IMG/VR virus record: IMGVR_UViG_3300005549_000012
Span: 1-63,143 of that record
Strand: one strand, 5' to 3'
Length of the DNA: 63,143 nt
DNA from: a virus
Below are positions 1 to 55,330 of the stretch, piece after piece (the first letter of the stretch is position 1; each line of letters starts with the position of its first letter). Both the position numbers and the translations under genes were made by a program. Below the pieces are notes generated by a model, which was not told where the DNA came from, searched no databases, and saw nothing but the letters and a program-made list of their open reading frames with translations.

Positions 1-428
1 ATAAGATAAACTTCAGGATTAAGGATGGTCACATTCAACTCCAACCAAAGCGGGATAATCGAGCTACAGGGCAGGTTAGGCGAGGCATGAAGAATGTCAA
101 GTAACCCAGACCGCGAACCCCGGCACTCCAGCTACGTCTGCCCCCCGGACGATACCTCGGAAGCCTACCGCTTGGGCTGGGTAGCGGAGGCTACCTCAGA
201 AGGACTTGCTTATCTAAACACCCAGCCGGGCTTCAACCAACTCGACCGTGCTATCGACATCATCTCAGGCCAACTCAACGAGCAGCTACCGGGCAACACC
301 GCTGCTGGCGGCGCTATGTCCAAGATCAGAGCTAACATTGTCAAGAGAGCCTTGAACGAGCAGATCAGCGTTCTCACCGATCTTCGGGACTTCTGGATGT
401 TTGAAACCAGCGACAAGACCCGCTGGGA
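1..428. repeat. Left copy of inexact terminal repeat
   Basis: Bases 1-428 align without gaps to 62716-63143. Positions 1-113 are identical. From 114 to about 360 there are roughly 29 substitutions by my count, and the last ~68 bases are identical again. Inside the portal reading frame almost all changes are synonymous; only residues 10 (Arg/Gln) and 12 (Ser/Thr) differ. This fits a circular or circularly permuted genome whose assembly closed through two coexisting portal alleles. A true partial tandem duplication is the less likely alternative. Confidence 0.9.
3..104 (+). CDS. 3' end of small Cys-rich phage protein (cut by window start)
   Basis: This is the C-terminal 33 codons of the gene that is complete at 62625-62819; the overlapping nucleotides are identical. 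The stop codon overlaps the portal start (ATG at 94), as in the right-end copy. It is broken only because the linear window starts inside it. Confidence 0.85.
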   Translation, partial: KINFRIKDGHIQLQPKRDNRATGQVRRGMKNVK

Positions 429-3053: not shown

Positions 3054-3274
3054 GCCAACCAACCCCCCGCCTCCGAAAGCAACCCTGCATCGAGCGCACC
3101 CGAGCGTTTGAGCAAACCAGCTATCGCGGTGATCCCCACGAGATCATCGACTACCTTCTGAACCTCCGCGAAAACGGCACCATCCACATCCATGTCAACC
3201 AAGGGGTAGCGGTCATAACCGAGTGGGACCACAACCACCAGCGCAATAAACCTGTTGACACTAATCCTGTTTAG
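3050..3274 (+). CDS. Small hypothetical protein (74 aa)
   Basis: I do not recognise it. It is a polar 74-residue protein with a hydrophobic central strand (IHIHVNQGVAVITEW). Its ATG overlaps the endonuclease stop in the motif AAATGA, exactly as the endonuclease ATG overlaps the portal stop. It therefore probably followed portal directly before the insertion and is translated by coupling. Confidence 0.65.
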   Translation: MSQPTPRLRKQPCIERTRAFEQTSYRGDPHEIIDYLLNLRENGTIHIHVNQGVAVITEWDHNHQRNKPVDTNPV

Positions 3275-3330
3275 CTGTACCGTCAGCTTGTAGTTGCATA
3301 AGTAGCTTCCCGGTCCGACGTTAGAAAACG

Positions 3331-3361
3331 AGGCCACTGACCATCCGGTTGGTGGCCTTTT
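3331..3361 (+). terminator. Putative intrinsic terminator / attenuator
   Basis: A 7-bp stem (AGGCCAC, 3331-3337, with GTGGCCT, 3352-3358) closes a 14-nt loop and runs into TTTT. It ends six bases before the next ATG, so it may only attenuate transcription of capsid genes. Confidence 0.55.
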
Positions 3362-3366
3362 GCCGT

Positions 3367-3582
3367 ATGCCGTGGTCATCTACAGATGCGAAACGTCACA
3401 CTCGCAAAGCCAAGTCATCAAAACAACGCCGTCAATGGGCACATGTTGCTAACAGTGTGCTCAGGCGTACTGGTGGCGAAGGCCGAGCCGTCGCTGCTGC
3501 GAACTCAGTCTTAAAGAAAGGAGGCAAACCAATGGATCGTCAGAACCGACGCAAAAAGGGTCGAAAGGGCAAACGCCGCTAG
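3367..3582 (+). CDS. Small basic phage protein near portal (71 aa)
   Basis: The 71-residue product resembles a small protein often found near phage portal genes, with the pattern K.KRRQWAHVANSVL followed by G.G.A...AN.VLK. Its function is unknown. The C-terminal 15 residues are almost all Lys/Arg/Gly. I chose ATG 3367 because upstream in-frame codons lie inside the terminator hairpin. No good Shine-Dalgarno is visible. Confidence 0.65.
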   Translation: MPWSSTDAKRHTRKAKSSKQRRQWAHVANSVLRRTGGEGRAVAAANSVLKKGGKPMDRQNRRKKGRKGKRR

Positions 3583-8957: not shown

Positions 8958-9320
8958 ATGCCTGTGGCCAGAGAGCTTTCTATCATAGACGCACTGCCAC
9001 GGCCGAGAATCGAGAGCATTCCACGCACAAAGCACGAAAGTAGTACAGAGCACATTGACGCTATGCCACCTGCTCAAGATAAGACCACGGTTCCGAATTG
9101 GGCACTCACGACATTCTGTGGCGTGCTTCTGCTGCTACTAGGCTTTGTCTACACCACCGTTGACCGGAGAATAGAAGACAAACAAAGAGAAATGGATAAG
9201 CTGGAGATACGGGTTGCCCAACAAGAAACGTACATGAAAAACACGCGGGAGAAGTTGATTGCCAACGGTTGGCAGGTAGATGAAGCCGGAAACATCAACC
9301 CTCCCCCTAAACACAAGTGA
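8958..9320 (+). CDS. Membrane-anchored coiled-coil protein (120 aa)
   Basis: ATG 8958 is chosen for its AGGAG site. Residues ~45-65 form one transmembrane segment (WALTTFCGVLLLLLGFVYTT), followed by a charged coiled coil (DKQREMDKLEIRVAQQETYM). This single-TM plus coiled-coil layout is typical of inner-membrane spanins or lysis accessory proteins, but no partner is proven. It lies in a run of small membrane and coiled-coil genes up to the holin-like gene. Confidence 0.6.
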   Translation: MPVARELSIIDALPRPRIESIPRTKHESSTEHIDAMPPAQDKTTVPNWALTTFCGVLLLLLGFVYTTVDRRIEDKQREMDKLEIRVAQQETYMKNTREKLIANGWQVDEAGNINPPPKHK

Positions 9321-9326
9321 GAAACC

Positions 9327-9611
9327 ATGCCAAGAGTCCCCGATAAGATTATCATCAACTGCTCGGTGTTCGACGCTGACGCCTACTCGATGCACTCAGC
9401 CTTCGAGGATGGTGAAAAGCTGAGTGCCGAGATCATGGAAATAGGCGGCGGAAAGGCCAAAGGCAACCTGCTTCTGAAAGAGGATGCAGATGAGCATTTG
9501 GCTAAGCAGGAAGCTATCTGCTCTGCCCTCGATACAGGGATGGCTGATTGCATTAAGCGCCAGCGTGCACTGAACGACAAGCGCAGGAAGTGGCTTGATA
9601 CTAAGTTGTAG
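9327..9611 (+). CDS. Hypothetical protein (94 aa)
   Basis: A mixed alpha/beta 94-residue protein without a recognised motif, with a helical basic C terminus (CIKRQRALNDKRRKW). It starts six bases after the membrane coiled-coil gene and belongs to the same operon. Confidence 0.5.
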   Translation: MPRVPDKIIINCSVFDADAYSMHSAFEDGEKLSAEIMEIGGGKAKGNLLLKEDADEHLAKQEAICSALDTGMADCIKRQRALNDKRRKWLDTKL

Positions 9612-9625
9612 CGAATCGGGAGCCG

Positions 9626-10267
9626 ATGTGGATGGCAAAGCGAAGGAAGCGACAAGGGAACGGCGCGGGCATCGGTGTAGACGCATTCGGTGGTCGCGTA
9701 GTCGATCCCACGGAGAACGTGAAGGCGCTTGCCGCTGCGAGCTCCGCTCGGCAAGACGACTTACGCCAACTCAATAATCGCTATATTCGTTCTGAGATCA
9801 AGCGGGTTCGGATGCAGGCGTTTCATGTTAAAGAGATCGTCTCACTGCATCAGGTTCATGATTACGCGCTGCACAAAGCCGAAGCTGGTCGCCTGAATGC
9901 ACTCAGGAAAAACGACCGTGAAGACTTGAGGGTATTGGCGGCTGCAACGACAGCCAAAGCAGAGGCGCTTCAAGTGCAAGTGGCAGCATCGGCGAAAGCA
10001 CTCGCGGACACGTTTGCGGCTCAGATGTCGGACGTAATTAAGCGGCTGTCGGCTCTTGAGTTGAGTTCATCCGAGGGCAAGGGTAAGGCCACTGTCGAGT
10101 CGCCGATGATGACCGAAATGGTATCCGAGTTGAAGGCGTTACGCAGAGAGCAACAGAACGTATCAGGGCAAAAGCAGGGTGCTCTCTCTACTCGTGAGAT
10201 GATTAGCTGGGTACTGCTTACGCTGATAACACTCTATGCGCTCTATAAGTCAATAAAGCCCGGATGA
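9626..10267 (+). CDS. Coiled-coil protein with C-terminal membrane anchor (213 aa)
   Basis: After a basic N terminus, residues ~40-165 form a long Ala-rich coiled coil (RVLAAATTAKAEALQVQVAA). The C terminus has one transmembrane helix (MISWVLLTLITLYALYKSI). This tail-anchored layout suits a lysis or envelope-associated protein. No enzymatic motif. Confidence 0.6.
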   Translation: MWMAKRRKRQGNGAGIGVDAFGGRVVDPTENVKALAAASSARQDDLRQLNNRYIRSEIKRVRMQAFHVKEIVSLHQVHDYALHKAEAGRLNALRKNDREDLRVLAAATTAKAEALQVQVAASAKALADTFAAQMSDVIKRLSALELSSSEGKGKATVESPMMTEMVSELKALRREQQNVSGQKQGALSTREMISWVLLTLITLYALYKSIKPG

Positions 10268-35493: not shown

Positions 35494-38438
35494 CCCAGCT
35501 TTATTTCAGACATCTCCCCCAGGTTCAATCCCACCTTAGTTTCAACCTTACAGGCTAGACCAGTAGGCGCTACCTTCGGATCAACCAACGCCTTACTTGG
35601 CCTCTCCATCAACTCAGTAACCGTTGCAACGCATTCATCCACGATAGCCTCTGGACACTCAAAGATCAGTGCATCATGCATATTCAAGATCAACCCAAAC
35701 CTTTCATCCAACCCCTTCTCTCCAAGCTCCAGCATAACATCGTACATCATCCCGAAGGCATCGTTTTGGACGAAATGGGAAATTGCAGATTCGCTGTCCG
35801 GCCCAGGCTCCCAGCGTTGCCAATTACTATTCCATTGTAGAACGTTCCAGAACCAACGGATGTAGCCATATCTGCTGAGCAGGTAGTGTTGCCTGTGGGC
35901 AAGCTCTCTTACATCTCTACGATAACGAACCTCAAGCGGGAACAGTCCCTCAAGAGTATCAATGAGCTTCTGGGCCTCAACCTTGCTGCTAATGAACTCA
36001 TCGTTTTCTTCCCAAAGCCTGTTGGCCTGCATGCCCAACCCGTATCCGAGAATCGTCGGCTTCGCCTGCTGGTTTCTAACATCCTTGAAGCTCAGTAGCC
36101 TACCCTTTGGCCCCGGATACTTCAGCGTTTCATCTTTCTTATAGTGACCAAGACAATCTAGCAGCTCATCATCGTCCATGACTACCAGCCGATCTGGTTG
36201 CTCCAGCTTCAGCAACGTAGCCGCAAAGAACGAGTGCATGTCTAGCTGAGATAGCCTCATATAAAGAGGGTCTTTCGACTCGAAGCCCAGGGTCAGAATA
36301 TGAAAGCTGGTCCAGTCGGCTTCGATCAACCTGCAACCCGGCTTAGCAACGATCGCCCTTCTCAGTTGAGCCGCCAACGGTCCGTGCTTTGGGATCGTCA
36401 TTATCGGCGGGCCGTTCCTCGTAGCAAGCTGGCCGTTCGCCGGCCTGTAGGTAAGATCAGCCCTGATCCTGCCATCCGGCCCCGGCATGAATCCCCCAGT
36501 CCTACTCTCCGCATCTCCAACATAAGTCCCTTTCATCTTGACCGGCTCCCGGTAGTCCAGAACCAGCTTGTAGAAAGGGTCTTTCGTCCTACGGCTGAGC
36601 TGGAGCAGAGCTTTCTCATTAACCGACTCACGCTTGACCTTCATCCCGTTCTGCTTCCCGCTGACAACCGGAACCTTGTGCTTTCGATGCTTGGCATAGG
36701 CCATGACCTGTTGCCAGGAGCCGGGGTTGAACTCCAGCGATTTGGTCCACTGCCCCTCAAATACACCTGTTGTAGTAGAATGAGCACTCCCCATTAAGTC
36801 GTGATAGGCTCCTCCCATTTCAGAAGTAGCCCCTACCATGATCTCCCGCTTCTGATAACCAAGCTCCTCAAACCCAAGCTGCTGTAATGCTTCTTTCTGG
36901 GGCTTCAGCTCTTTCGCCAACGCAGCCTTCGTCATCTTCTGGCCAACCGGCCACTGAGCCTTGATGCTCAACTCGATTACAGGCAACCGCTCGTTTACGA
37001 ACTCTCTAATGTCCTTCGGGATACCCTTGAAAGGCTTGAACTGGTTTAGCTCCGCTGGAACCAGTGGCAATATCTCCTGCCTCACTCTCTCTATCTCAAC
37101 CGAGAGCTGCTGCCCAAACACAACAAGCTGCTCTGCATCGGTGCCGACGCCTCGGGCCTTCATCCGTTCAAGGATCGGCCTGAGCTGCTGTCGTTGACGA
37201 ACCCAGCTATCCCAGACCTTCAGCTTTTTCATTGCGGCTGGGATTTGCTGGAATATCCTGAGCGTTGCATCTGCGTCGGCTACACCGTAGAACCGCAGGT
37301 TTGGGCCAGCATAGTGCTTCCAGGGGAAGGGCATCGAGAACCACGAAGCGACGAACTGAAGATCAGCAGGTAGATCAGGCTGCATGTGATGCCACATCCA
37401 GAGGGTGTCGCTTATTTCTCCTGCGATGGGGCATCCATGGCTAGATAATATAGGATTGTCAAACAACCAAACATTATGACCGACCTTGGAGTTGGCCAAC
37501 TGAAAGGTTTGTCGAACGACCTCAACATAAGCACCAACAAAAGGTAGAGCGATACCGCTACCTGCCGCCGTGCTGAACTGAACAAGAGTGATCTGCTGCC
37601 CCATTTCTTCATTATCAACCTCCCCTTCGGCCTTCCCCGCGCTGCGATCCGTCTCGATGTCATAACTGATAACCAGTTCAGGGTTTGTCTTACAGTGCTG
37701 GTAGAACTTCTCAGCTTCCTCAACGGTAGGATCAGTCTGATAGCTCAGCCTCGGATCATCCATAGGGTTCAGGATGTAGCTGGTTTGGACCGGCTGCTCG
37801 ACTACAGTTCTGGTAGGCTTGCCCGTCAACGGATCGTTGATCCACTGAACTGATTGCTTCGTTACCCTCCCCTCTCTAGCGACGGCGACTGCCCTGCGGA
37901 TGTCCTCAACAAGGACTCTAAAGAGCTGTCCAGCTCCTCTTCGTATATAACTTGGGTGGTAGCTTGGGACAACGACGACTCCGCTGTAATCGATAGCTTG
38001 TAAGACATATCCCCGGAGCGAAGTGACAGTTCTGTGATCGCCGGTAAGCCCTGTGAGTGTTCTGAGGGCAATGTTCCCAAGCGCCAGAATAACCTTTGGC
38101 TGAAATCGTCGCACAGCGTCTTGAAGGTATTGACTGCATCGCTCGATAGCTTCTCGTTCATATTCGGCCCCCTCTAGAAAGTTTCCTGGTGGTTGACACC
38201 GGACTATATTTGTGATGACAAGCTGTTCTCTTGCAACCCCGGCCAGCTTCAATGCCCTCTGAAACACCGACCCAGCATCAGCGTGGGGCCGCAGCGGTAG
38301 ACCATCGGCTCTTTCTCTGGCACCCAAAGCCTCGGCTGCAACTAGAACTCCCAAACTCCCGGTCCCCTCTAAAGCAGAGAACCCCATTCCATCGCCATAT
38401 AAAGGGCAGCCCAAACATGAGTCGGGTTTAGGTAACAT
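35490..38438 (-). CDS. Uracil-DNA glycosylase-like / family A DNA polymerase fusion
   Basis: The 982-residue protein joins three parts. Residues 1-190 are a family 4/5-type uracil-DNA glycosylase-like domain with all four expected Fe-S cysteines (C8, C11, C81, C101), an ITNIVRCQPPGN segment and PSYHPSYI. Residues ~250-450 are a 3'-5' exonuclease (SYDIETDRS with D260/E262; VGHNVWLFDNP). The C-terminal part is PolA: motif A EADWTSFHILTLGF, motif B QQAKPTILGYGLGMQ, motif C LNMHDALIF. In motif C the usual HDE is HDA. It is the replicative polymerase of the phage. The start ATG lies inside the end of the HNH gene upstream. Confidence 0.9.
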   Translation of the reverse strand: MLPKPDSCLGCPLYGDGMGFSALEGTGSLGVLVAAEALGARERADGLPLRPHADAGSVFQRALKLAGVAREQLVITNIVRCQPPGNFLEGAEYEREAIERCSQYLQDAVRRFQPKVILALGNIALRTLTGLTGDHRTVTSLRGYVLQAIDYSGVVVVPSYHPSYIRRGAGQLFRVLVEDIRRAVAVAREGRVTKQSVQWINDPLTGKPTRTVVEQPVQTSYILNPMDDPRLSYQTDPTVEEAEKFYQHCKTNPELVISYDIETDRSAGKAEGEVDNEEMGQQITLVQFSTAAGSGIALPFVGAYVEVVRQTFQLANSKVGHNVWLFDNPILSSHGCPIAGEISDTLWMWHHMQPDLPADLQFVASWFSMPFPWKHYAGPNLRFYGVADADATLRIFQQIPAAMKKLKVWDSWVRQRQQLRPILERMKARGVGTDAEQLVVFGQQLSVEIERVRQEILPLVPAELNQFKPFKGIPKDIREFVNERLPVIELSIKAQWPVGQKMTKAALAKELKPQKEALQQLGFEELGYQKREIMVGATSEMGGAYHDLMGSAHSTTTGVFEGQWTKSLEFNPGSWQQVMAYAKHRKHKVPVVSGKQNGMKVKRESVNEKALLQLSRRTKDPFYKLVLDYREPVKMKGTYVGDAESRTGGFMPGPDGRIRADLTYRPANGQLATRNGPPIMTIPKHGPLAAQLRRAIVAKPGCRLIEADWTSFHILTLGFESKDPLYMRLSQLDMHSFFAATLLKLEQPDRLVVMDDDELLDCLGHYKKDETLKYPGPKGRLLSFKDVRNQQAKPTILGYGLGMQANRLWEENDEFISSKVEAQKLIDTLEGLFPLEVRYRRDVRELAHRQHYLLSRYGYIRWFWNVLQWNSNWQRWEPGPDSESAISHFVQNDAFGMMYDVMLELGEKGLDERFGLILNMHDALIFECPEAIVDECVATVTELMERPSKALVDPKVAPTGLACKVETKVGLNLGEMSEIKLG

Positions 38439-50739: not shown

Positions 50740-50845
50740 GATTAAACCCTCCAACCTTCCAAGATTTACAAGCAAGCCAAGCGGCAACCTTTGAGGCTGC
50801 AACCCACGTTTTCAGCTTGGCGAAAACCATGTCAACGACAGCTAC

Positions 50846-50875
50846 TTGTCTCTGTCCATATACCTCTGCTATCAT
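50846..50875 (+). promoter_or_regulatory. Rightward promoter for the HTH gene
   Basis: TTGTCT (50846-50851), 18-base spacer, TATCAT (50870-50875). The ATG at 50886 is only ten bases downstream of the -10 and has no Shine-Dalgarno, so the message would be nearly leaderless. Confidence 0.5.
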
Positions 50876-50885
50876 CCTCGGCGTT

Positions 50886-51155
50886 ATGTCTGCAACCTCA
50901 CCCACTCGCAAGCCTGTTGGCCGTATGCGATTATCAGCCGAACAGTACAGCGTCATCCGAACGCAAAGCCTAATGGACTTGCTGACTTCAATGGACGCAC
51001 TTATATCAGTCACGACAGCCGCCCGCTTGCTGGGCGTCCAGCGGGGCACCGTCTGCAAGTGGATTGAACGCAAGACTTTAGCGGCTTTCAACATTGATGA
51101 CCGTCTCTATGTACTTCGATCCGATGTGATTGAACGTGCTACTCGTTCTCGTTGA
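50886..51155 (+). CDS. Helix-turn-helix regulator (89 aa)
   Basis: The C-terminal half, ISVTTAARLLGVQRGTVCKW followed by IERKTLAAFNIDDRLYVLR, is a MerR/excisionase-type HTH (HTH_17) DNA-binding domain. It is the only plus-strand gene inside the leftward block: divergent from the gene at 50739 and convergent with the one at 51157-51318. The start may also be ATG 50922. Likely a phage regulator of early transcription. Confidence 0.7.
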   Translation: MSATSPTRKPVGRMRLSAEQYSVIRTQSLMDLLTSMDALISVTTAARLLGVQRGTVCKWIERKTLAAFNIDDRLYVLRSDVIERATRSR

Positions 51156-51156
51156 C

Positions 51157-51318
51157 TCAGTAACCCAACCAACAAAGCACTTCCCAGCCATTGTAGCTAC
51201 TGCTACAGCCGTTTTCAGCCTGAAACTCAGTCCAGCTACAACCGTGGCGCTCGACCTCACGTCGGGCCTGTTGAGCGGTGATGGTTGGCTCCTCGTCCAT
51301 TACTTCGTCTAGCGTCAT
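51157..51318 (-). CDS. Small phage protein, first gene of leftward block (53 aa)
   Basis: ATG 51318 follows GGAGGGTTGGGACA. Sequence ITAQQARREVERHGCSWTEF and a WEVLCWLGY end match short phage proteins of unknown role. It is directly downstream of the strong divergent leftward promoter. Confidence 0.65.
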   Translation of the reverse strand: MTLDEVMDEEPTITAQQARREVERHGCSWTEFQAENGCSSSYNGWEVLCWLGY

Positions 51319-51355
51319 TGTCCCAACCCTCCATTGGTGTAATTGAAACGGCGGC

Positions 51356-51384
51356 ATCGTAGCACACACACAAATGGGTGTCAA
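51356..51384 (-). promoter_or_regulatory. Strong leftward promoter (early)
   Basis: TTGACA (51384-51379), 17-base spacer, TACGAT (51361-51356) on the minus strand. It drives the leftward block and is the best sigma70 match in the window. Confidence 0.75.
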
Positions 51385-51730
51385 GCGAAATCGTGCTATA
51401 GGCGTGAAAGTGGCTCTGGGAGCCTGTTTCAGCCCTTTGGCGATGTAGGCTACCATTGCTAGAAGTAGTCGCCGCGATGTTGTCGCCGTTATCAATGTCC
51501 AGGTTGTCGCTGTTGTCGCCCGCTGGATCGAGCCTGCCCCAGCCGCCAACGCCGCAAGCAGCGATGCGCCACAGCGTATGCAACGTTACATCGCGCCAGG
51601 CCAGCTCCAGCCCAGGTCGGCCCAGGCTGTCCGCCGCTAGGTTGACCCGCCGCCGCTGGCCGAGGTTGTCCTGCGGACCCCGGGGGGTAGGCCAGCGTGC
51701 GAGCCCGTTCTCAAACTTGTATTTTTTTTT

Positions 51731-51752
51731 CTACCAATTCCGGCTATGGTAG
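51731..51752. promoter_or_regulatory. ACTACCA-type inverted repeat
   Basis: CTACCA (51731-51736) and TGGTAG (51747-51752) face each other across ten bases. The same box occurs at 45700-45742 and at the helicase promoter (46841-46851). Confidence 0.45.
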
Positions 51753-51796
51753 TTACAGTAGTATAGCTTACACAAGCTGCATAGCGAGAAAAGGCG

Positions 51797-51814
51797 AAAC
51801 TGGAGTTGCTTTTC
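51797..51814 (+). repeat. Direct repeat flanking the TopoVI-A-like gene, copy 1
   Basis: AAACTGGAGTTGCTTTTC, matching 52785-52802 at 16 of 18 positions. It also forms the loop and 3' arm of a hairpin (AGAAAAG 51787-51793 with CTTTTCT 51809-51815). Confidence 0.55.
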
Positions 51815-51850
51815 TGCTAGGGATGTCTGGGTCTTGTTTGAGGCTTTGCC

Positions 51851-51856
51851 TATAAT
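51851..51856 (+). promoter_or_regulatory. -10 box TATAAT for the TopoVI-A-like gene
   Basis: Perfect TATAAT eight bases before ATG 51864; no convincing -35 at 17 bases. Transcription would start at or within a few bases of the ATG, giving a leaderless message. Confidence 0.5.
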
Positions 51857-51863
51857 AGATGGT

Positions 51864-52778
51864 ATGAAACAGAAATTCCAAAACATAAACTTCAGAGCGG
51901 ACAGCTTAGCTACTATCCAGCACGCCAATCGGATTATAGGAGACTACGAAGCACAGGGCTTTACGTTGACCCTACGTCAACTCTATTACCAGTTTGTTGC
52001 CCGAGGGTTGAGAGAGAATACGGAGCGGAGCTACAAACAGTTGGGAAACATTATCTCAGACGGTAGGCTTGCGGGGTTGATTGATTGGGATGCTGTTGAG
52101 GATAGGACCAGAAACCTTAGAGGTTTGTCTCACTGGGAAAGCCCTGAGAGCGTTATCAACTCGGCATATCATTCATTCAGGTTGGACAAGTGGGATAACC
52201 AACTAAACTATGTTGAGGTTTGGGTTGAGAAAGATGCTTTAGTCGGCGTCATTGAAGGTGTGTGCCAACGAAACGATGTGAGCTACTTCGCTTGTCGCGG
52301 CTACACTTCCCAAAGTGAGATGTATAGCGCAGCACAGCGATTGGCCTACCAGTTGAATGTGGGTAAGGAAGTGCATATCTTGCATTTGGGCGACCATGAT
52401 CCTTCTGGAATAGACATGACAAGAGACGTGAGGGATCGGCTTACCATGTTTCTTGAAGGAATGGATTGCAGCGTTAGTAGATTGGCTTTGAACTGGGATC
52501 AAGTACAGGCGTACAAGCCTCCTCCTAATCCGGCTAAGTCTACTGATTCCCGGTATCGAGGCTATAGGCAGGAATTCGGCTTGGAGTCATGGGAGTTGGA
52601 TGCGCTGGAGCCGAGGGTCATTAGCGATTTGATCGAGGATAACATTTTAGACTTAAGAGATGAAGATCTCTGGAATGAGATGGTGGATGAGGAAGCCAAT
52701 CATAAGAGACTGCTGAAGGATGCCTCGGCAAGATGGGTTGAGGTTGTCAAGTTTCTGGATAAGAAAAAGAAGCGGTAG
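51864..52778 (+). CDS. Stand-alone Spo11/TopoVI-A-like protein (Mini-A-like)
   Basis: 304 residues from ATG 51864. Residues ~33-80 (LTLRQLYYQFVARGLRENTE... LAGLIDWDAVEDRTR) match the winged 5Y-CAP domain of Spo11/TopoVI-A, with R38 and the Y41-Y42 pair containing the presumed catalytic Tyr. A TOPRIM domain follows: WVEKDALVGVIEGV (E122) and HLGDHDPSGIDMTRD (D177, D179). No TopoVI-B partner is in the window. Stand-alone 'Mini-A' homologues have been reported from mobile elements. It could make double-strand breaks or cleave-join DNA in replication or recombination. TTG 51834 is an alternative start. Confidence 0.75.
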   Translation: MKQKFQNINFRADSLATIQHANRIIGDYEAQGFTLTLRQLYYQFVARGLRENTERSYKQLGNIISDGRLAGLIDWDAVEDRTRNLRGLSHWESPESVINSAYHSFRLDKWDNQLNYVEVWVEKDALVGVIEGVCQRNDVSYFACRGYTSQSEMYSAAQRLAYQLNVGKEVHILHLGDHDPSGIDMTRDVRDRLTMFLEGMDCSVSRLALNWDQVQAYKPPPNPAKSTDSRYRGYRQEFGLESWELDALEPRVISDLIEDNILDLRDEDLWNEMVDEEANHKRLLKDASARWVEVVKFLDKKKKR

Positions 52779-52851: not shown

Positions 52852-53595
52852 ATGAACCTGAAAAAATTCAGCAGGGTGAATCTCGAACGTTGCACGGCGC
52901 CTGATGGCTTTGGTCACTCACTCACGAGTTGGTCTGAGGCCGAGTGGACTAACGCGATGGCGGGTGAGTTTGGTGAGGTCTTGGAGCAGATCTGCAACCT
53001 CGGAGCTGCGATCGGTAAGGCGAGTAATCTAGCAAAGAAGATAATCCGGCATCGGGATGATGTTGCCGGAAACGTCAAGATAGATGACCGGGATTTGCCT
53101 AATTTGCGCCAGCGGATAGCACTCGAAGTTGCGGACGTAGTCATCTATGCCGATTTAACCATGCAGCGGCTTGGGTATGACACGTCCACAGTCGTAGCAG
53201 AGGTATTCAATCGAAAGTCAGATGAATTGCAGTGCTCTATTCGGTATGATGGGGGTCAGGATCGAGGTTTTGTTTACCTTGCTGGTCCCTATGCACACAA
53301 TGATCCCGCTGTTCGAGAAACCCGTTATCGGCTACTCACCGCAACCGCTGCAAAGATGATGCGCGAGGGTACGCCAGTCTACTCTCCAATCACACATAAT
53401 CATCTGCTTGCCACGATGAACGAGATGCCTACCGGCTGGGACTTCTGGCGCTCTATGGATGAGCAAATGATTGAACAGTGTATCGAGCTTCATGTGCTTA
53501 TGCTCGATGGCTGGAAGGAGTCAGTTGGAGTTACAGCAGAGATCGGGATAGCGGAGAGTCTGGGGAAGCCCGTCAAGTTTATAGAGCCTGAGTAA
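52852..53595 (+). CDS. MazG-like pyrophosphohydrolase / DUF1937 fusion
   Basis: 247 residues in two halves. Residues ~20-135 resemble MazG-type NTP pyrophosphohydrolases (MAGEFGEVLEQICNLGAAIG; ALEVADVVIYADLTMQRLGY, with the E-x-x-E and E-x-x-D metal ligands). Residues ~145-247 match DUF1937, a nucleoside 2-deoxyribosyltransferase-like family (FVYLAGPYAHNDPAVRETRY; MIEQCIELHVLMLDGWKES; EIGIAESLGKPVKFIEPE). The fusion may cleanse or remodel nucleotide pools during replication. Both domains occur singly in other phages. Confidence 0.75.
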   Translation: MNLKKFSRVNLERCTAPDGFGHSLTSWSEAEWTNAMAGEFGEVLEQICNLGAAIGKASNLAKKIIRHRDDVAGNVKIDDRDLPNLRQRIALEVADVVIYADLTMQRLGYDTSTVVAEVFNRKSDELQCSIRYDGGQDRGFVYLAGPYAHNDPAVRETRYRLLTATAAKMMREGTPVYSPITHNHLLATMNEMPTGWDFWRSMDEQMIEQCIELHVLMLDGWKESVGVTAEIGIAESLGKPVKFIEPE

Positions 53596-53931: not shown

Positions 53932-54546
53932 ATGAAGGTTCTTGTTGCCTGTGAGTTCAGCGGTGTGGTACGAGACGCATTCCGTGCTCTTGGTCATGAT
54001 GCATGGTCGTGTGACTTGCTGCCCTCGGATCGACTTGGGCCTCATATCCAAGACGATGTTCTACTGCATCTCGATGAGAGCTGGGATCTGATGATTGCTC
54101 ATCCACCCTGTACTTACTTAGCCAGTAGTGGGCTTCATTGGAACAAGAGAATTCTCGGCAGAGAGCAGCAAACTCATGAGGCAATGCTATTTGTGCTGAA
54201 CCTGATGGGTGAGGGGTTTGTTGATAATCCTGTGCCCCACATAGCTCTGGAGAATCCTATTGGTAGAATCTCAACTGCCTTTCGCAAGCCGGATCAGATC
54301 ATTCAGCCGTGGCAGTTTGGCCACCCCGAAAGTAAGGCGACCTGTTTGTGGCTAAAAGGATTGCCACTACTTCGGGCAACGAAGGTGCTAGAGCCCCGGA
54401 ATGGGGATTACAAAAGAGGATGGGACAACCAAACTCCTAGTGGGCAAAATCGGTTGGGACCGTCCGATGATAGATGGAAGCTGAGGTCTATCACCTATGA
54501 AGGGATCGCAAAAGCGATGGCCGAACAGTGGGGAGCCTTGTCATAA
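53932..54546 (+). CDS. DNA cytosine methyltransferase-like protein A
   Basis: 204 residues. Motif I VACEFSGVVRDAF, motif IV IAHPPCTYLASSG (PPC with the catalytic-type Cys) and an ALENPIGR motif VI-like ENP are those of C5-cytosine methyltransferases, but the protein is short and lacks a clear target-recognition domain. Such small MTase-like proteins are common in phages and may protect DNA or methylate at low specificity. Confidence 0.7.
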   Translation: MKVLVACEFSGVVRDAFRALGHDAWSCDLLPSDRLGPHIQDDVLLHLDESWDLMIAHPPCTYLASSGLHWNKRILGREQQTHEAMLFVLNLMGEGFVDNPVPHIALENPIGRISTAFRKPDQIIQPWQFGHPESKATCLWLKGLPLLRATKVLEPRNGDYKRGWDNQTPSGQNRLGPSDDRWKLRSITYEGIAKAMAEQWGALS

Positions 54547-54641
54547 TGACGATCGACAACGAACCAATCTGCGTCTGTGGCCGAAAGCAGAGCGAGCATC
54601 CGGCTGAGGACTGTAGAGAGTTCGTGGACGGGGGGATATGA
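54546..54641 (+). CDS. Very small zinc-knuckle-like protein (31 aa)
   Basis: Sequence ICVCGRKQSEHPAEDCREFV has Cys, Cys, His and Cys at knuckle-like spacing, a pattern seen in tiny phage proteins. It starts at the previous stop and its own stop overlaps the next ATG (ATGA). Confidence 0.5.
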   Translation: MTIDNEPICVCGRKQSEHPAEDCREFVDGGI

Positions 54642-55330
54642 AGGCAAAGCCTCGATTACTGGACCTGTTTTGTGGGGCCGGTGGTGCCTCAATGGGCTAC
54701 CATCGTGCAGGCTTTGATGTGGTGGGTGTGGACATAAAGCCGCAACCGAGGTATCCATTCGATTTTATCCGATCAGATTGGCTTGATGTACTTACAGTCT
54801 CATTTCTGGGTGAGATTGATCTAATTCATGCATCACCTCCATGTCAGGCATATTCTGATCTTGCTCGGCGCAACGGCAACGCAGATCAGCATCCGCGCTG
54901 GATCGACGTACTACGTGAGATGCTTGATGCTGCTAACCGTCCTTGGATTATTGAAAACGTCGAAGGTGCTCCGTTGTTTGAACCGCTCATTCTATGCGGC
55001 ACGATGTTTCCATCTCTGCGCGTCATCCGGCATCGCCTTTTTGAGTTTTCCTATTCGATTATTGAGCGGGGTAAGCTGGTTGCACCCGAGCATCCTAAAC
55101 ACCCACTCGTCTATACAAGAGACAAACGCAAGGCTCATTATGGAGAGCTTAGCGAGTGGAATTCTCCGGTCAGTGTAAACGGGGGCGGAAACTGTTCCGT
55201 GGCGGCTGCTCAGGCTGCGATGGGTATTGATTGGATGACGAAAGCGGAACTCAACGAGGCCATTCCACCGGCCTACACCGAGTTCATAGGTAAGCAGTTG
55301 ATGGCTTACCCAGAAGGGGTAGGTCGGTGA
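54638..55330 (+). CDS. DNA cytosine C5-methyltransferase B
   Basis: 230 residues with motif I LLDLFCGAGGASMGYH, motif IV IHASPPCQAYSDLAR (PCQ, catalytic Cys), motif VI WIIENVEGAP and motif VIII-like VIRHRLFEF. It is short for a C5 MTase, with a reduced target-recognition region before the C-terminal motif X-like helix. With the preceding gene it forms a tandem pair that may give different sequence specificities against host restriction. Confidence 0.8.
   Translation: MKAKPRLLDLFCGAGGASMGYHRAGFDVVGVDIKPQPRYPFDFIRSDWLDVLTVSFLGEIDLIHASPPCQAYSDLARRNGNADQHPRWIDVLREMLDAANRPWIIENVEGAPLFEPLILCGTMFPSLRVIRHRLFEFSYSIIERGKLVAPEHPKHPLVYTRDKRKAHYGELSEWNSPVSVNGGGNCSVAAAQAAMGIDWMTKAELNEAIPPAYTEFIGKQLMAYPEGVGR

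Follow-up and report, generated by a model that had tools for sequence, protein, structure and literature searches.

Introduction

Mini-A proteins are viral type IIB topoisomerase-like proteins that, as related in later papers (PMC8185306, PMC7614492, PMC11302465), were named in 2020 by Takahashi et al. They are encoded mainly by mobile elements and are uncharacterised in archaea (PMC8185306; PMC11302465). The subfamily has specific differences in its motifs and C-terminal domain (PMC8185306), and the protein of Pseudomonas phage NP1 has been drawn as an example (PMC7614492). No activity is reported for any member in the reviews (PMC8185306, PMC7614492). More is known of topoisomerase (topo) VI and SPO11, in which two subunits jointly form the active site (PMC11922746). 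SPO11 dimers cut DNA without partners, and mouse SPO11 alone cleaves, nicks and reseals DNA (PMC11922746). In M. mazei topo VI the site is lined by Y106, E202, D254, D256 and E342, an R102–E342 salt bridge restrains the Tyr, and the E342Q substitution raises cleavage (PMC13040014). In the DNA-bound, pre-cleavage state of topo VI the Tyr is still ~10 Å from the acidic residues of the partner subunit (PMC13040014).

Here we analysed a stretch of viral DNA of 63,143 nucleotides (IMG/VR record IMGVR_UViG_3300005549_000012; hereafter the window). An earlier note, made from the sequence alone, had proposed that this stretch encodes a stand-alone Spo11/TopoVI-A-like protein.

Results

The window encodes a Mini-A protein

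The open reading frame at 51864–52778 on the plus strand (ATG start, stop codon included) encodes a protein of 304 amino acids, in agreement with the earlier note. The protein matched PHROG 6247 ("DNA topoisomerase") over residues 1–300 with an E value of 6e-113, and it shares 46.4% identity over 91% with the Mini-A protein of phage NP1. A family profile built without the window protein gave 485 bits for it, 370 bits for the NP1 protein and 170 bits for an archaeal plasmid Mini-A (P-7H_11). Relatives occur in viral contigs, plasmids, and bacterial and archaeal genomes: 76 phage records and 47 plasmid records have one, and the candidates from viral contigs and from genome contigs contained 545 and 167 relatives, respectively. 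Like NP1 Mini-A, which it matches at full length and with which it shares its PHROG, the window protein is viral and a single subunit without B. It is not new in kind, and nothing distinguishes it from described Mini-A proteins.

Sequence searches for homology to topo VI A gave weak results throughout. The Mini-A family profile and a topo VI A profile did not detect each other's families at E < 1, the latter finding topo VI A only, and hhalign of Mini-A against topo VI A was weak (P 0.04). Pfam gave no match for the window protein (best E 0.12, for TP6A_N), and phmmer and hmmsearch against the PDB, together with an NCBIfam scan, returned only weak indications. It is the fold that makes the case for homology to topo VI A. 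The window protein is thus a Mini-A whose fold and catalytic residues tie it to topo VI A at a distance beyond simple sequence search.

Candidate catalytic residues are invariant in the family

The candidate catalytic Tyr42 lies in R38-Q-L-Y-Y42 (51975–51989, plus strand), with an Arg at Tyr minus 4. E122 (52227–52229, plus strand), the putative metal-site Glu of the TOPRIM domain, corresponds by motif to E202 of M. mazei topo VI, and the TOPRIM DxD, D177-H-D179 (52392–52400, plus strand), to D254/D256. Tyr42, within RQLYYQF, and Glu122, Asp177 and Asp179 lie where the earlier note had placed them and are invariant in 81 of 81 aligned proteins (the window protein and 80 viral loci, 49–61% identical in the best segment). 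R38 and E244 (52593–52595, plus strand), the latter in a WELDAL motif, are likewise invariant, and a 74-member alignment (A1) agrees with the 81-protein alignment on the invariant residues. The E and DxD sites, as well as the second Tyr of RQLYY, persist in relatives at ~27–30% identity (archaeal, Streptomyces, Rubrobacter and Cupriavidus plasmid relatives). This retention, together with the invariance in the alignments, argues that the catalytic motif is not due to chance, and judged by its residues the window Mini-A looks catalytically intact. The motif differences specific to Mini-A may include the invariant WELDAL.

Predicted winged-helix and TOPRIM domains each match topo VI A

An AlphaFold model of the window Mini-A, built with alignment A1, had a mean pLDDT of 91.6 and comprised a winged helix and a TOPRIM domain (residues 115–264; 52206–52655, plus strand). 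Foldseek with the full model against the PDB returned a single match at E < 0.001, topo VI A 1d3y (E 4.6e-5, TMq 0.37), and against viral structures one match at E < 1e-3, with no name attached. As the TMq indicates, the predicted arrangement of the two domains is not a close match to topo VI A, and superposition over the whole chain is poor. In VIA comparisons the TOPRIM region gave Z 10.4 with topo VI A (both 1d3y_A and 9o0g_A), Z 10.0 with JetD 7til_B (Z 10.0–10.1 over JetD/MksG) and Z 8.5 with Spo11 (8urq_A). Since a de novo Rossmann design gives an equally high score, Z alone is no proof of a TOPRIM domain, and the conserved Glu and DxD carry that case.

The full-model search scarcely probed the N-terminus, and residues 1–108 were therefore folded separately (model m9d39cd98995b, pLDDT 87.5). 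The best VIA match of the winged helix alone (residues 11–82; 51894–52109, plus strand) was topo VI A 1d3y_A (Z 8.1, rmsd 2.3 Å, 69 aligned). M. mazei topo VI gave Z 7.4, unrelated winged helices scored Z 6.7, little below topo VI A, and Foldseek gave a poor E of 0.86. The alignment sets residues 11..82 of the model on 72..143 of 1d3y_A, and with an offset of 61 at both ends Tyr42 coincides with residue 103 in this M. jannaschii protein. In M. jannaschii topo VI A, we take the catalytic Tyr to be Tyr103.

Fold prediction and comparison with topo VI A, as suggested in the earlier note, thus show a winged helix and a TOPRIM domain that each match topo VI A. The stand-alone Spo11/TopoVI-A-like identity proposed there is supported by fold, motifs and family, and the right name for the protein is Mini-A. 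The same note had held that a Tyr far from the metal site would speak against the assignment. This is a poor test, because topo VI and SPO11 form the active site across two subunits, so that a monomer model cannot reveal the catalytic geometry.

Mini-A shares with topo VI A the winged helix and TOPRIM, the RxxxY with the catalytic Tyr, the Glu, the DxD and, by motif, an Arg–Glu pair. Topo VI A is longer (360–370 aa, against about 304 aa for the window Mini-A). Mini-A aligns from Top6A residue 72 and lacks the N-terminal Top6A segment. Topo VI A also has EQQAF where Mini-A has WELDAL, and a B subunit where Mini-A has none. Spo11 is, like Mini-A, a topo VI-A-like breaker, but it is eukaryotic, meiotic and governed by a large accessory complex, which Mini-A is not. 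Topoisomerase VIII, type IIB and mobile-element-borne as Mini-A is, carries an ATPase part that Mini-A lacks. JetD and MksG, of the Wadjet and MksBEFG systems, have a TOPRIM fold like that of Mini-A but belong to an SMC complex, whereas Mini-A has no frequent SMC gene among its immediate neighbours and keeps an invariant Tyr.

A putative equivalent of the topo VI clasp

The R38–Y42 spacing of four residues in Mini-A is the same as that of R102 and Y106 in M. mazei topo VI, and R38 matches the clasp Arg, R102. E244, in the invariant WELDAL of Mini-A, aligns by motif with EQQAF of 17 topo VI A proteins. These 17 came from members of the same order as a Methanosarcinales archaeon; a PF04406 search of two archaeal MAGs had given a broken match only. 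Motif order and similarity point to E244 as the equivalent of topo VI E342, and the R38/E244 pair would match the topo VI clasp that restrains cleavage. The retention of the Arg–Glu pair in Mini-A is an addition of the present analysis.

A Gln stands at the aligned clasp position in two plasmid relatives, from Streptomyces and Rubrobacter (L188 3953–4855 and L189 3968–4897), and resembles the cleavage-prone E342Q mutant of topo VI.

No B subunit found alongside Mini-A

Neither PF13589 (GHKL) nor PF09239 matched in the window record, a 63-kb viral contig without terminal repeats that may be incomplete. The claim that the genome has no B subunit is thus borne out for this contig. In the 43 other Mini-A-bearing virus records, many of them possibly fragments, the GHKL profiles PF13589 and PF02518 likewise gave no match; the same two profiles matched in 14 of 14 control genomes. 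Across these contigs, some perhaps incomplete, Mini-A is a stand-alone A module with no B subunit encoded alongside.

Mini-A is a swappable single gene

No constant partner gene was found by clustering of neighbours in 86 loci (a crude ORF caller was used, and blastp clustering misses distant homologues) or by PHROG and Pfam scans of 142 immediate neighbours. The commonest neighbour families, helicases and HTH regulators, account for at most 5 of these 142, on which count a fixed partner gene was rejected. SMC genes were not frequent among the same 142 genes, and PADLOC gave no convincing defence model (best E 0.0025, for HEC-01B in 5 of 74 members; JetD models, E 0.0066–0.024, in single members). 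In phage NP1, Mini-A directly abuts a gene for a Sak4-like annealing protein and adjoins a DNA ligase gene, and in NP1, Delta and RcSimone-Hastad it sits among replication and nucleotide genes.

Closely related genomes differ in whether they carry the gene. Among Chi-like phages, SPN19, 118970_sal1 and BP12C have Mini-A. In Chi and Utah, the two phages in which the content of the slot was inspected, an 84-aa gene takes its place between flanks that are 94–98% identical. The 84-aa gene, its family unassigned, lies at 3196–3450 in both the Utah (L247) and the Chi (L248) locus, and its product has no significant similarity to Mini-A (E 0.06). The Chi-like locus occurs in 115 phage records (88 of Salmonella), and Mini-A in only 6 Salmonella records. 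Throughout the Nipunavirus records listed with the locus, Mini-A appears to be kept.

A second comparison concerns a filamentous-phage-like P. durus plasmid (L192, NZ_CP009289.1, 15,151 bp), which carries Mini-A at 9144–10037 together with a Zot/pI ATPase, small membrane proteins and no recognisable Rep. Mini-A is missing from its relatives L230 and L241, which have an annotated Rep or a Rep homologue; P. polymyxa pPpR313 exemplifies a relative with an annotated Rep and without Mini-A. L242 (G121:C3), which is closer to the P. durus element, retains the same non-coding region and small genes and has neither that Rep nor Mini-A. Replacement of Rep by Mini-A in this plasmid was rejected on that ground. 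A close relative has ~0.2 kb where P. durus has a 1.35-kb stretch, and Mini-A in the P. durus plasmid looks like an insert. Mini-A is thus a single gene that can be swapped, and some genomes at least can do without it. The swappability and the lack of a constant neighbour are additions of the present analysis.

Surroundings of the gene in the window

For positions 38000–62900 of the window, no near-identical phage was found in the phage collection. According to the earlier note, the rightward genes begin with Mini-A, beside the control region. This essentially holds: a gap of ~540 bp (51319–51863), a probable control region, separates leftward from rightward genes, and the rightward genes that follow it start with Mini-A. 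However, an isolated rightward helix-turn-helix ORF (50817–51155; PF12728, E 6e-7) lies just to the left. Within the gap, a promoter-like TTGACA-17-TACGAT is predicted on the minus strand at 51384–51356. A possible leftward gene of 53 aa (51157–51318, minus strand) adjoins this site, and the longer ORF that contains it had no family match.

Downstream of Mini-A and on the same strand, the C-terminal half of the product of 52852–53595 is nucleoside 2-deoxyribosyltransferase-like (DUF1937/PF05014) and its N-terminal half MazG-like by eye; a function in nucleotide metabolism is likely. Two DNA methyltransferase-like genes follow on this strand at 53932–54546 and 54638–55330 (PHROG 757; PHROG 363/PF00145, short). 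The left arm of the window encodes a DNA polymerase, a Sak4-like protein, a helicase/primase-like ATPase and an HNH endonuclease. Neither Rfam families nor tRNAs were found when the window was scanned.

Discussion

By our analysis, Mini-A would correspond to the module with which a type IIB topoisomerase cuts DNA, without the Top6A N-terminal extension and the B subunit. Most likely a Mini-A homodimer binds DNA and, by analogy with topo VI A and SPO11, Tyr42 of one subunit would attack the backbone at the TOPRIM metal site of the other. The product would be a nick or a double-strand break with the protein bound to the 5' end. The R38–E244 pair probably keeps the winged helix in check as long as the right DNA is not bound, a restraint that would stand in for the ATP-driven control exerted by a B subunit. 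In the phage the protein would most likely play an accessory part, supplying nicks or breaks for recombination of the phage or for DNA processing, rather than be an essential replication initiator. Taken as a whole, an intact, B-independent tyrosine DNA breaker of the Mini-A family, accessory in the phage, is in our judgement the probable explanation. Its least certain part is the biological role: recombination or DNA processing is a tentative assignment, suggested by the Sak4-like gene next to NP1 Mini-A and by the Sak4-like and DNA polymerase genes on the left arm of the window, and the diversity of immediate neighbours leaves the role unfixed by genomic context.

Other roles can be weighed against the same evidence. 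That Mini-A breaks host or competitor DNA, for takeover or for the exclusion of other phages and plasmids, is a serious alternative but appears doubtful; timing or modification would then have to shield the phage DNA. The related JetD/MksG folds (Z 10.0–10.1) serve plasmid restriction, the window has its two methyltransferase-like genes downstream, and the sporadic presence in Chiviruses resembles that of accessory weapons; yet methyltransferases are not frequent immediate neighbours across loci, and the PADLOC matches were unconvincing. Also a serious alternative, though an unlikely one in our view, is a true topoisomerase activity by which Mini-A would relax or decatenate phage DNA in replication, through nicking, swivelling and resealing or through B-independent strand passage. 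Both PHROG 6247 and RefSeq annotate a DNA topoisomerase, SPO11 alone reseals nicks with swivelling (PMC11922746), one topoisomerase VIII relaxes DNA without ATP (PMC7614492), and the gene sits among replication and nucleotide genes in three phages. Against this, the ATPase partner is absent from every record searched, and near-identical Chi-like phages manage without Mini-A.

The absence of the gene from close relatives also bears on replication initiation, which the earlier note had offered among the possible roles. An initiator that nicks an origin as a rolling-circle Rep does would account for the P. durus plasmid with Mini-A and no recognisable Rep, set beside pPpR313 with the reverse. The closer relative without either gene, and Chi and Utah without Mini-A, argue against a role as general initiator and make this reading very improbable. 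The clasp pair, the swappability and the lack of a constant neighbour fit an accessory B-independent breaker better. Least credible to us is a free-standing selfish gene that spreads, as homing endonucleases do, by cutting alleles without it. A single gene among many different neighbours, cleanly exchanged for another between the Chivirus flanks, speaks for this reading, but Mini-A is apparently kept in the Nipunavirus records, and topo VI-like enzymes show little preference for particular sequences.

Returning to the accessory breaker, we tentatively extend it to a self-contained tyrosine breaker held by its R38–E244 clasp, a one-gene cassette exchanged by phages and plasmids that might introduce double-strand breaks into the DNA of phage, host or competitors, and so a possible equivalent of Spo11 in viruses, independent of any B subunit. 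The named Mini-A family is large and widespread. Cleavage by SPO11 in the absence of partners was demonstrated in 2025, so a phage module without B could be a simple model for the control of type IIB cleavage. Among the Chi-like phages, natural pairs that differ in the presence of the gene make the role of Mini-A directly testable.
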